Source of the DNA: Cytophagales bacterium | Lineage (GTDB): Bacteria > Bacteroidota > Bacteroidia > Cytophagales > Spirosomataceae | DNA length: 64,000 nt | Assembly (NCBI GenBank): GCA_013298125.1 | Contig: JAAFJP010000010.1 | Span: 62,001-126,000 of the forward strand | Reading direction: 5' to 3' | Shown: piece after piece, positions 28,089-32,046 of the stretch | Layout: each line of letters begins with the position of its first letter | Numbering within the stretch: position 1 is the stretch's first letter | Made by a program: the position numbers and the translations under genes | Notes under the pieces: model-generated | The model's input: only the letters and a program-made list of their open reading frames with translations | Databases searched by the model: none | Told to the model about the DNA's origin: nothing

Positions 28089-28169
28089 ATTCCAAAAATA
28101 CGAGTTAGTGATGAGTTATGAGCAATTGGTATTGAGATTTTTGGGAATAATGTTCTAATTTTGTCTTTC

Positions 28170-28242
28170 AGTGATTGGTGATTAGTGGTTAGTGATTGGT
28201 TTGATATGTCCGCCAACCACCAATCACTAATCACCAATCACT
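28170..28242. repeat. Inverted repeat of AGTGATTGGTGATTAGT units
   Basis: The left arm 28170-28197 and right arm 28215-28242 are near reverse complements, separated by a short spacer with TGTCCGCCAAC. A solitary copy lies at 32027-32044. It fills the gap between the divergent sensor and leuS genes and sits only 17 bp before leuS. Confidence 0.8.
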
Positions 28243-28258
28243 AATACCTTAAAAAAAA

Positions 28259-31189
28259 ATGGACTATAATTACAGAGAAGTAGAACAAAAATGGAGAGCG
28301 TTTTGGGAAGAAAATGAGACTTTCAAAACAGAGATAAATCCCTCAAAACCAAAATATTACGTATTAGATATGTTTCCGTATCCATCGGGTGCGGGGCTAC
28401 ACGTGGGACATCCGCTTGGGTATATTGCCTCTGATATTATTGCTCGCTACAAGCGTTTGAAGGGCTTTAATGTGCTTCATCCTATGGGCTTCGATTCCTT
28501 CGGTTTGCCCGCCGAACAATACGCTATTCAAACGGGGGAACATCCTGCCATCACTACCGAAGAAAACATAAAGACTTATATCCGTCAGCTAAAACAAATT
28601 GGTTTTAGCTATGATTGGAGCAAAGAAGTACGTACTTCCGATGCTAAATATTACAAATGGACTCAGTGGATTTTTATGCAATTATTCAATCACTATTACG
28701 ATAAAAATGCGAATAAAGCCTTGAAAATCAGTGATTTAATTGTGCGTTTTTCAGAATCTGGCAATAAGTCTGTCAATGCCGTTTGTGATGAAGATACGCC
28801 TAATTTCACTTCGGAAGAGTGGAATGGAATGACCGAATACGAACAGCAATCTATGTTGTTAAAATACCGTTTGACTTACCCTGACGAATCTGTCGTAAAC
28901 TGGTGTCCAGGATTGGGAACTGTTTTGGCAAATGATGAAGTAAAAGACGGTGTTTCAGAACGTGGTGGATTTCCTGTTGAGCAAAAGAAAATGAAGCAAT
29001 GGGCAATGCGAATCACTGCCTACGCTGACCGTTTGATTGATGGCTTGAATGAAGTAGATTGGTCAGATTCGTTAAAAGACCAACAACGTAATTGGATTGG
29101 CAGAAGTACAGGAGCAAGTGTTCGGTTTCAAATAGCCCCCCCCGCCCCCAGAGGGGGAGCTACTGAGACGAAATCGGATGAGAAAACTCCCCCTCTGGGG
29201 GCGGGGGGGGCTATCGAAGTATTCACCACCAGAGTCGATACCATCTACGGTGTTTCGTTCATGGTAATTGCCCCTGAGCATGAATATGTACCGTTTTTAA
29301 CAACTTCCGAACAAAAAGAAGCCGTTGATGAATATGTAAAATGGGTAGCTTCTCGAAGTGAATTAGACCGTATGTCGGAGGTAAAAAAAGTATCGGGTGT
29401 TTTCACAGGGAGTTACGTTATCAATCCATTCAACAACGAAAAAGTGCCGATTTATTTGGCTGATTACGTTTTGGCTGGTTACGGAACGGGTGCGGTCATG
29501 GGTGTACCTTCGGGCGACCAACGTGACTGGAATTTTGCAACCCATTTCAACTTGCCAATCGTGCCAATTTTGGATGCTCAGAAAGATATTGACACTCAGG
29601 CAGACAACACCAAAGAAGGAAAGTATATCAATTCAGGCATTATTAATGGCTTGGAATATAAGGAAGCAACCAAAGTTTTGACGGATTTCTTAGAAGAAAA
29701 AGGAATCGGAAAAGGTAAGATTCAATACCGTTTGCGAAATGCTGTTTTCAGTCGCCAACGTTATTGGGGCGAGCCTGTACCAGCGTATTTTAAGGATGGT
29801 TTGCCGTACTTAATAGAAGAATCAGGATTGCCTTTGACCTTGCCAGTAATTGATAAATACCTTCCGACTGAAACAGGCGAACCACCTTTGGGACGTGCGG
29901 AGGGTTGGGCATATCACCCCTCTCATAATGGAGAGGGGCAGGGGGTGAGGTATCCTTATGAACTTTCAACAATGCCAGGTTGGGCGGGTTCGTCTTGGTA
30001 TTGGTATCGTTATATGGATGCCCACAACGAGACAGAATTTGCTTCGCAGGAATCAATAAATTACTGGAAAGCCGTTGATTTGTACATTGGAGGTTCGGAA
30101 CACGCCACAGGACATTTATTGTACAGTCGTTTTTGGAATAAATTTTTGAAAGATTTAGGACTTGTTCCAGAAGAAGAATTTGCCAAGAAATTGATTAATC
30201 AAGGAATGATTCAAGGGCGTTCTAATTTTGTGTATCGAGTAAAAAACAGCCCCCTAACCCCCAGAGGGGGAATATTGGACTCAAATATTGAAAGCGAAAG
30301 TTCCCCCTCTGGGGGCGGAGGGGGCTTGTTTGTCTCCGCTGGCTTACGTCATGACTATGAAACTACTCCAATTCACGTGGATGTAAATATTGTGAGTAAC
30401 GATGTGCTTGATATTGAGGCATTTAAGGCTTGGAGAGAAGATTTTTCTAATGCTGAATTTATTTTAGAAGATGGAAAATACGTTTGTGGAGTGGAGGTTG
30501 AAAAGATGTCAAAATCTAAGTACAACGTTGTTAATCCAGATATTTTAGTTGATAAAGTCGGTGCGGACACTTTACGTTTGTATGAAATGTTCTTAGGACC
30601 TTTGGAACAAGCCAAGCCGTGGAATACCAACGGAATCGACGGTTCATTTAGATTTATCAAAAAAGTTTGGCGTTTGTTTTATGATGATGCTGATAATTTG
30701 AAAGTAAAAGATGAGGTCCCCAATCCAGCTGAATTGAAGGTTTTGCATACAGCCATTAAGAAAGTTGAGGAGGATTTGGAACGTTATTCTTTCAATACCG
30801 TAGTTTCAACTTTGATGATTTGTGTCAATGATTTAGGTACGTTGAAATGCTCTAAAAAGGCTATTTTGCAAGAATTAGTTATTTTGATGTCGCCATATAC
30901 CCCTCATATTGCCGAGGAACTTTGGACGATTTTGGGCAATGAAGCGGGTACTATTTCTTACACAAATTTCCCAACGTTCAATCCAGCTTATTTAGTAGAA
31001 GCTAATTTTGAATATCCAATTTCTATCAATGGAAAGGTGAGAGCTAATCTTTCGTTCCCTACTGATGCTTTACCTGCTGATATTGAGGCAGTTGTACGTG
31101 AAAATGAAATTGTAATGAAATGGTTGGAAGGCAAAGAAATTAAGAAGGTTATCGTTGTACCAAAGCGTATTGTGAATGTGGTGATGTAG
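28259..31189 (+). CDS. leuS: Leucyl-tRNA synthetase with three palindrome-derived insertions
   Basis: The 976-residue class I synthetase has the HIGH-type HVGH at 48-51 and KMSKS at 749-753. The editing domain includes VFTTRVDTIYGVSF. Three segments look foreign: about 292-319 (APPAPRGGA to PPLGAGGA), 553-564 (HPSHNGEGQGVR) and 663-689 (NSPLTPRGG to SPSGGGGG). Each is encoded by a GC-rich palindromic element in an otherwise AT-rich gene, and each falls between well-conserved motifs. The reading frame is kept throughout. The gene is expected to be essential, so the insertions must be tolerated unless another leuS copy exists. Confidence 0.96.
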   Translation: MDYNYREVEQKWRAFWEENETFKTEINPSKPKYYVLDMFPYPSGAGLHVGHPLGYIASDIIARYKRLKGFNVLHPMGFDSFGLPAEQYAIQTGEHPAITTEENIKTYIRQLKQIGFSYDWSKEVRTSDAKYYKWTQWIFMQLFNHYYDKNANKALKISDLIVRFSESGNKSVNAVCDEDTPNFTSEEWNGMTEYEQQSMLLKYRLTYPDESVVNWCPGLGTVLANDEVKDGVSERGGFPVEQKKMKQWAMRITAYADRLIDGLNEVDWSDSLKDQQRNWIGRSTGASVRFQIAPPAPRGGATETKSDEKTPPLGAGGAIEVFTTRVDTIYGVSFMVIAPEHEYVPFLTTSEQKEAVDEYVKWVASRSELDRMSEVKKVSGVFTGSYVINPFNNEKVPIYLADYVLAGYGTGAVMGVPSGDQRDWNFATHFNLPIVPILDAQKDIDTQADNTKEGKYINSGIINGLEYKEATKVLTDFLEEKGIGKGKIQYRLRNAVFSRQRYWGEPVPAYFKDGLPYLIEESGLPLTLPVIDKYLPTETGEPPLGRAEGWAYHPSHNGEGQGVRYPYELSTMPGWAGSSWYWYRYMDAHNETEFASQESINYWKAVDLYIGGSEHATGHLLYSRFWNKFLKDLGLVPEEEFAKKLINQGMIQGRSNFVYRVKNSPLTPRGGILDSNIESESSPSGGGGGLFVSAGLRHDYETTPIHVDVNIVSNDVLDIEAFKAWREDFSNAEFILEDGKYVCGVEVEKMSKSKYNVVNPDILVDKVGADTLRLYEMFLGPLEQAKPWNTNGIDGSFRFIKKVWRLFYDDADNLKVKDEVPNPAELKVLHTAIKKVEEDLERYSFNTVVSTLMICVNDLGTLKCSKKAILQELVILMSPYTPHIAEELWTILGNEAGTISYTNFPTFNPAYLVEANFEYPISINGKVRANLSFPTDALPADIEAVVRENEIVMKWLEGKEIKKVIVVPKRIVNVVM
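29132..29214. repeat. Palindromic element 1 in leuS, perfect 28-bp arms
   Basis: Arms 29132-29159 and 29187-29214 pair at all 28 positions. They begin ATAGC and end GCTAT and consist mostly of C and G runs. The 27-base loop is AT-balanced. The whole unit is translated. Confidence 0.95.
29915..29950. repeat. Half element 2 in leuS
   Basis: CACCCCTCTC and GGAGAGGGG with a trailing CAGGGGGTGAGG form the reverse complement of half of the element at 41448-41532, differing mainly in the small loop. It encodes the insert HPSHNGEGQGVR. Confidence 0.85.
30247..30327. repeat. Palindromic element 3 in leuS
   Basis: Arms 30247-30272 and 30301-30327 pair with one small indel. The sequence is close to element 1 (AGCCCCC...CCCCCAGAGGGGG). 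It is translated in frame. Confidence 0.9.
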
Positions 31190-31196
31190 CTTTCCC

Positions 31197-31293
31197 GTCT
31201 GAATTCGGATTCGCCAGATTAGCGGATTTATTGGATTAAGTTATGTGCTAAAAATCCTAAAAATCCACTAATCTGTCGAATCCAAATTCAGAC
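31197..31293. repeat. Inverted repeat with 34-bp arms
   Basis: GTCTGAATTCGGATTCGCCA onward at 31197-31230 pairs with 31260-31293 at about 30 of 34 positions. It is the second member of the family seen at 2415-2558. It fills the gap between the leuS stop and the next start. Confidence 0.88.
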
Positions 31294-31957: not shown

Positions 31958-32026
31958 ATTAAGGGATAAATACAGTTTCAACGTCATTTCCATTTTTTAC
32001 AAATACGAAAATTTAGGTGGTTGAAA

Positions 32027-32044
32027 CACTAATCACCAATCACT
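32027..32044. repeat. Solitary CACTAATCACCAATCACT unit
   Basis: It matches the arms of the element at 28170-28242 in an intergenic position just before the dGTPase stop. Confidence 0.7.
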
Positions 32045-32046
32045 AT

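Follow-up and report, generated by a model that had tools for sequence, protein, structure and literature searches.

The leucyl-tRNA synthetase (LeuRS) gene leuS1 of a Cytophagales bacterium, presumably an Arcicella species, contains three palindromic segments within its reading frame. The gene lies in a 64,000-nucleotide stretch of assembly GCA_013298125.1 (the window, G000:C2:62001-126000, where G000 is the genome under study; other G codes denote compared genomes, whose family and genus are presumed, and L codes loci). The assembly comprises 5.85 Mb in 72 contigs, with a stated contamination of 0.99%. The gene occupies positions 28259-31189 of the forward strand and encodes 976 aa in a single frame that stays open across all three elements, as an earlier note on the window had described. 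It matches the LeuRS structure 1h3n of the PDB (E-value 1.2e-161). The closest named LeuRS match is that of Arcicella aurantiaca DSM 22214.

Palindromes in the two leuS copies

The first element (site 1, 29132-29214, forward strand, translating to QIAPPAPRGGATETKSDEKTPPLGAGGA) is located at the tip of the beta-hairpin preceding the editing domain. Inverted-repeat analysis reproduced the perfect 28-nt arms of this 83-bp unit (29132-29159 and 29187-29214). The third element (site 3, 30247-30327, forward strand, NSPLTPRGGILDSNIESESSPSGGGGGL) lies between two strands ahead of the KMSKS region. It has the design of site 1, as claimed previously, and has diverged: its two halves show 86% and 83% similarity to the site-1 halves, and its arms are imperfect. 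Both belong to one dispersed family with the arm AGCCCCCnnnCCCCCAGAGGGGGA, here named family A. The second element (site 2, 29915-29950, forward strand, HPSHNGEGQGVR) had been taken for a half unit of the site-1 type. It is instead a short palindrome of a second family, B (CACCCCTCTC..GGAGAGGGGCAGGGGGTGAGG), and leuS of A. aurantiaca has it at this position too.

All three palindromes are located in variable loops. The predicted RNA folding energy of site 1 is -76.1 kcal/mol versus -36.3 in shuffled sequences (z -10.8), and that of site 3 is -56.7 kcal/mol (z -7.5). Site 2 does not fold beyond its shuffles (-20.4 kcal/mol, z -1.2, 23 of 200 shuffles equally good). In an AlphaFold2 model of LeuRS, with a mean predicted local distance difference test score (pLDDT) of 75, sites 1 and 3 fall in hairpin tips between strands 282-292/318-323 and 652-661/690-692, respectively. 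Such a model had been proposed as a check of surface location. The confidence in these tips is low (residues 298-315 and 664-687 have pLDDT below 50), as it is in other stretches of the model that also fall below 50.

The assembly contains a second full-length leuS gene, leuS2 (976 aa, G000:C3:130997-133924), with 96% protein identity to leuS1. The earlier note had named a second intact copy, with this one silent, as an objection to its reading. A second intact copy does exist, but it carries two elements itself, and thus there is no element-free LeuRS in the assembly. Site 1 of leuS2 is a plain loop, site 2 holds a full family-A element, and site 3 holds the leuS1 element with one base changed. 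The homology of the two copies ends near the gene borders. Both flanks of leuS1 are syntenic with those of A. aurantiaca leuS, whereas the flanks of leuS2 have no match there. The copies are sisters in the tree (support 1.0), and they are 91% identical across the 932 codons compared, with 175 synonymous and 38 non-synonymous codon differences, which suggests that both genes are constrained. Around site 3 the identity rises to 98%, consistent with gene conversion in this region. Contamination of the assembly may bear on this pair.

Among the seven other genomes of the genus, leuS was found once in each of six, and none was found in G004. The site-1 and site-3 elements are absent from all six genes, and the short site-2 element is present only in A. 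aurantiaca. Since these loops are plain in the relatives, an ordinary conserved protein segment was rejected as an explanation. The in-frame palindromes in leuS are confirmed, and the alignments support their reading as insertions.

Other inverted repeats border leuS1. Immediately upstream (28160-28259) there is an AT-rich palindrome of short repeated units (AGTGATTGGTGATTAGTGG..) with arms that are 80-90% complementary, and a related copy is found at 32024-32045. A 41-nt inverted repeat, 88% complementary, occupies 31197-31293, between leuS1 and the next gene downstream, which we take to be pseudouridine-synthase-like.

Family A in the genome and in relatives

A genome-wide search for the element had been suggested, and it revealed a dispersed family with copies in the reading frames of many enzymes. 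With at most one mismatch, the 13-nt core CCCCCAGAGGGGG has 49+50 occurrences in G000 versus 0+0 for the reversed control, and therefore the repeat is not due to chance. These cores form 55 elements, of which 44 have two inverted cores and 11 a single core. In consensus an element reads (T/A)AGCCCCCnnnCCCCCAGAGGGGGA, then 13-127 nt of spacer, then the reverse complement. A copy was counted as genic when the stop-to-stop frame around it measured 180 residues or more, with at least 40 of them ahead of the copy and at least 25 behind it. By this definition 38 copies are genic, five are at frame edges and 12 are intergenic. As about 86% of the window lies in frames of at least 100 aa, the family does not avoid genes.

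Thirty of the 39 element-bearing frames were scanned with NCBIfam (leuS1, leuS2 and seven others were left out). In 19 frames a single stretch of the match runs across the element, several of these being below the curated cut-off. The spanned proteins include valyl-tRNA synthetase (ValRS), PheT, UvrA, MurD, methylmalonyl-CoA mutase, ArgC, PBP1C, Lnt, an MsbA-like transporter, a BioF-like protein and a RhaD-type aldolase. A rhamnulokinase-like frame is counted here, although its spanning stretch fails alone. In two frames (Ddl-like and NirB) two stretches of one NCBIfam family flank the element, and in the remaining nine the match neither spans nor flanks it. Alignment of PheT, UvrA and the mutase to solved structures demonstrates a longer loop from which some native residues are missing. 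For MurD and ArgC the alignments are not tight enough to judge the loop.

The elements are read mostly in one codon phase. On the coding strand, the left core encodes PRGG in 29, PPEG in five and PQRG in two of 36 cases (p 1e-8), and the right core encodes PPLG in 22, PSGG in 11 and PLWG in one of 34 (p 6e-5). This bias arises in part because some arm variants contain stops. Arms with TAA/TTA linkers account for 15 of 64 genic versus 15 of 20 intergenic arms (p 8e-5), so the genic copies are a partly distinct subfamily. Genic spacers contain 104 stop triplets versus 147.6 (sd 9.0) in shuffled spacers, for which coding alone accounts in part, and intergenic spacers contain 57 versus 70.0 (sd 5.6). 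Avoidance of stops in all six frames as a design feature is weakly supported by these counts. Target-site duplication was rejected by comparison of the flanks with shuffles: 13 of 44 flank pairs share a 3-mer and none share a longer word, a mean reached by 37 of 300 shuffles.

Some copies have an unusual context. Locus L087 (G000:C45), with two family-A elements, and L088, with one, are frames of 3546 aa and 2023 aa (within the fetched stretch) that are 45% identical to each other. At L057 (G000:C4:48960-49055) the element is located between two glycosyltransferase matches of one frame, and it may join two formerly separate proteins.

The exact core is found in 16 of 222 genomes of the bacterial family, representing nine of 36 genera, with the highest count (33+33) in G000. 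Within the genus, G004 has 10+15 cores, G002 has a single core, and the other five genomes have none. In a sample of the phylum, the 24-nt arm with at most one mismatch occurs in eight of 395 genomes; outside G000 the core nearly always contains CAAAG. Genomic contexts were sampled in seven bearers, at exact-core places among the matches listed, and in G556, at places from the phylum arm search; G002, G017, G149, G151, G180, G181, G183, G186 and one place in G185 were outside this sample. The ratios of genic to intergenic copies are 6/5 in G004, 13/2 in G013, 8/1 in G014, 3/8 in G147, 11/3 in G185, 6/6 in G127, 5/3 in G135 and 0/4 in G556, the rest being at frame edges. A 24-nt arm pattern is also present in one viral contig of IMG/VR (L215); phage carriage was set aside.

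The same loops are occupied repeatedly. In G013, LeuRS has an element peptide at each of the three sites. At these LeuRS sites, relatives without an element have a plain loop, which the element replaces in bearers. One loop of ValRS holds an element in G000, G013 and G135, each time with a different length and spacer, and in place of the native loop residues, which are gone. The 15 other aligned rows have no element there, including G127 of the same genus as G135. Horizontal transfer of the whole valS neighbourhood was rejected, as the flank identity is near the gene mean. Among the matches listed, eight genes (matches above 120 bits, orthologues with at least 60% identity) have elements in two genera, and seven of them share at least one site: LeuRS, ValRS, alanyl-tRNA synthetase (AlaRS), methionine synthase (MetH), ApbE, the L060 gene and a protein that is presumably of the FG-GAP type. 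In ClpB (L054/L284) the sites are different, and in MetH and AlaRS the shared sites are accompanied by others that are not shared. Other low-complexity segments were observed in the same or other variable loops, namely L207 (leuS of G147) and L024 (leuS of G002), both at site 1, and residues 231-258 of ValRS of G000. Their types (DVRDSMFDVSDSMFEVRNSEN.. and SNRQSAVG..) seem to represent a separate class of coding repeat.

DUF559 inserts in host enzymes

In the only isoleucyl-tRNA synthetase (IleRS) found in G000, a frame of 1324 aa, there is an insert with matches to DUF559 (PF04480, E-value 1.6e-35) and to the endonuclease-like structure 3hrl of the PDB (3e-21). It lies between 24-nt inverted repeats of the type seen at site 2 (family B). 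A search for DUF559 in 26 genomes yielded 17 matches, 11 of them in frames of at least 600 aa. In MetH of G013, family-A cores are located on either side of an in-frame DUF559 domain, with an exact inverted repeat of 17 nt, and family-A-type arms also enclose in-frame DUF559 in MetH of G014, G536, G606 and G556. The arms are thus common to miniature and nuclease-bearing forms. In LeuRS of G288, G337 and G528, the DUF559 insert lies exactly at site 1, in the loop that holds the first element of leuS1.

Matches to Pfam and NCBIfam place DUF559 inside IleRS, MetH, MnmE, HsdR and LeuRS, as well as in a GATase_5-domain protein, a PDDEXK_1 protein and restriction-modification enzymes. The domain is present in 162 of 395 Bacteroidota genomes. 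Among the 150 matches listed, 39 are in frames of at least 600 aa, 12 in frames of 250-600 aa and 99 in shorter ones. Some long frames, such as the antiphage-type protein L340, may carry DUF559 as a normal domain. Flanking inverted repeats of at least 11 nt were observed at ten of the first 13 loci and at 11 of 30 further loci from among the matches listed. In 1000 random control segments the mean repeat is 8.2 nt, the 99th percentile is 11 nt, and 11 nt is reached in 2.5% of cases. Arms around DUF559 are common, not universal. The motif D..ExDG is retained in 20 of 23 embedded copies, the exceptions being three copies in HsdR. Neither a splicing (Hint) domain nor a transposase domain was found among the Pfam matches of the DUF559 forms (for Hint, E-values up to 1e-6 or 1e-8).

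In a tree of 43 DUF559 domains, the copies group by host gene. The support is 0.98 for the main MetH site (seven copies), 0.95 for LeuRS (three), 1.0 for HsdR (three) and 0.96 for the PDDEXK_1 host (three). The second MetH insert of G014, which is at another site, groups with the PDDEXK_1 clade. The copies in LeuRS share one insertion site, and the same holds for those in MetH (main site), in IleRS and in the PDDEXK_1 host. In MetH, nuclease identity is 57-72% while host identity is 57-87%, and the former does not track the latter: hosts of G013 and G014 are 87% identical and their nucleases 69%, whereas in G014 and G556 the values are 61% and 72%. This fits nuclease lineages that may move between species at fixed places, like homing endonucleases.

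Other DUF559-like loci were observed. L334 (G003:C16) is a stand-alone DUF559 gene between the arms of a perfect 31-nt inverted repeat of similar architecture. In leuS of G028, from another family, a divergent DUF559-like insert (L047, 1.1e-10) is found at LeuRS site 3.

Possible origin and spread of the elements

We believe, with a probability of about 60%, that the segments in leuS descend from a homing-like element that encodes a DUF559 nuclease and is translated without splicing, and that they represent its miniature form. The miniatures would be non-autonomous palindromes that insert into genes, keep the frame and are read as part of the host protein, mostly in one Pro/Gly/Ala-rich codon phase; the insertions would be tolerated because they are in flexible loops. 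In the full-length form, the same arms would surround a PD-(D/E)XK-like DUF559 nuclease, in frame in the host enzyme and with no splicing domain. The nuclease would cut the site in an empty allele, repair would copy the element in with the loss of native loop residues, and selection would retain only in-frame copies located in loops. Subsequent loss of the nuclease would leave arm-to-arm miniatures, such as leuS sites 1 and 3. The sequences themselves show that the family is dispersed and inserted in frame, that it replaces loop residues in LeuRS and ValRS, that sites recur, that nuclease-bearing forms have the same arms and that the nucleases group by host gene; the descent of the miniatures from the nuclease form, or their movement by it, is conjectural, like the cutting and copying. 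The broader claim of a selfish class of such translated, unspliced loop inserts, with DUF559 between palindromic arms, homing across Bacteroidota and leaving miniatures spread to dozens of genes, is more tentative, and we would give it slightly less than even odds.

A number of observations weigh against the nuclease origin. Its weakest point is the spread of the miniatures: they are found at about 50 sites and greatly outnumber the nuclease forms, and thus a strictly site-specific nuclease does not explain the dispersal. Cleavage, movement and translation of the elements are predictions from sequence. The co-occurrence is moderate, as DUF559 is found in nine of 12 bearers searched (of 16) versus three of 14 non-bearers (p 0.016). 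With strong matches only, the numbers are seven of 12 versus three of 14 (p 0.11), and in the phylum sample six of eight versus 156 of 387 (p 0.07). No DUF559 was found in the bearers G135, G002 and G017, and neither of the two copies found in G000 has family-A arms. Among the first 13 loci, L338 and two stand-alone genes (L330 and L339) have repeats not above chance, and 19 of the 30 further ones have repeats shorter than 11 nt, including all three in LeuRS (7-8 nt). The gene-specific nuclease clades may also stem from old vertical inheritance plus loss: the PDDEXK_1 hosts are closely related to one another, the branch uniting the G014 MetH copy with those of G536, G606 and G556 has a support of 0.78, and the two IleRS copies, although at the same site, pair with a support of 0.12. 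The HsdR inserts occupy two positions despite a single nuclease clade. The valS flanks show no co-conversion. Our confidence is slightly lowered by the two thirds of further loci without a clear repeat and by the two positions in HsdR.

One alternative, which we consider unlikely, is that these are REP/REPIN-like elements (REP, repetitive extragenic palindrome) moved by RAYT, a Y1 tyrosine transposase, with DUF559 an occasional passenger between two copies and the in-frame location in loops due only to purifying selection. The two inverted hairpin units (44 of 55 elements) do resemble a REPIN, there is no target-site duplication, and Y1_Tnp matches are present in 24 of 26 genomes examined. Intragenic location is not alien to REPs either: one report mentions some within genes, including those of tRNA synthetases, and one same-site case in recB of Xanthomonas (PMC3733652). 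However, the copies studied here are mostly inside genes, with 43 of 55 in long frames, unlike extragenic REPs. The GTAG tag is not conserved: of 88 flanks, 81 have A at position -1 and 81 have T/A at -2, but just 24 have G at -3. The best Y1_Tnp match scores only 33-34 bits (curated cut-off 23) in G014 and in G147, which has 12+12 cores, and G151 has none. Mobilisation by the two full Y1_Tnp genes of G000 itself was rejected, since neither is flanked by the element and both are flanked by palindromes of other families. These genes, L095 (G000:C6:24000-31500) and L096 (G000:C4:106000-113500), each have their own palindrome family, one of the GCCCCATCGGGGC type with GGTAG and the other of the CGAGGGGTTTAAACCCCTCG type.

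Somewhat less probable still are coding palindromes of the Rickettsia type with a mobiliser unrelated to DUF559, in which case recurrence would reflect only the small number of tolerant loops. Indeed, by length variation in LeuRS of 31 relatives, sites 1 and 2 come first and second of 16, with the site-3 region third to fifth; the ValRS loop comes second among 13 non-bearers (the ValRS rows of G149 and G003 being excluded as fragments). Moreover, unrelated palindromes occur at LeuRS sites 1 or 2 in Mucilaginibacter, Dyadobacter, Larkinella and Fibrisoma: in 13 of 34 long LeuRS loops the inverted repeats exceed the gene control at 0.05, and nine loops have arms of at least 9 nt. On the other hand, this leaves unexplained the family-A arms on both sides of the MetH nuclease and the nuclease clades specific for host gene and site. 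A last alternative is vertical inheritance of ancient insertions with loss in most lineages, which would agree with the gene-specific nuclease clades and with site 3 being common to leuS1 and leuS2. Still, we regard such an origin as very improbable, as the plain loop in nearly all relatives looks ancestral, the elements in valS are unequal in length and spacer between G000, G013 and G135, and G127 is without the element of G135.

The parallel with Rickettsia drawn in the earlier note holds as a likeness in the way the elements work. Rickettsia palindromic elements are dispersed, many are in frame in conserved genes, and one fusion protein was shown to be translated (PMC10969869, PMC2229807). 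The family studied here is likewise a set of dispersed palindromes inserted in frame into unrelated genes, 38 of 55 copies being in long frames. It differs in being found in other organisms, in the reuse of several loops across genera, and in arms enclosing a nuclease. Counterparts of the Rickettsia elements reportedly exist in Wolbachia and Methanocaldococcus, judging by titles only.

The nuclease forms resemble homing endonuclease genes, whether free-standing or within introns or inteins: a nuclease domain with a conserved catalytic-type motif is located at recurrent sites in conserved genes, and its lineages mostly group by host gene, a pattern to which vertical descent may have contributed. 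Unlike these genes, the elements are read in frame as host protein, have palindromic arms and occur in miniature forms, and unlike inteins they have no Hint domain among their Pfam matches. As in miniature inverted-repeat transposable elements, short non-autonomous forms share terminal inverted repeats with a longer protein-coding form; however, here the longer form has a nuclease, no transposase domain was found in it, and there is no target-site duplication. We found neither this palindrome family, nor its nuclease form, nor such a role of DUF559 described in the open-licence literature, of which that on DUF559 was covered in small part. In-frame palindromes themselves are already known from Rickettsia and some REPs; what is new is the finding, in MetH of other species, of an in-frame DUF559 nuclease between arms of this family.

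We know of no account that settles how the Rickettsia elements enter essential genes and spread. Related arms with and without a nuclease, several of them at the same sites, make the spread of coding palindromes testable. If the selfish-element reading is true, it would supply a candidate mobiliser for them, and the LeuRS editing-domain hairpin, MetH, IleRS and others would be recurrent homing sites. The element-bearing loops form a natural map of enzyme sites permissive to foreign peptides, and DUF559, a "protein of unknown function" in Pfam, gains a testable function.

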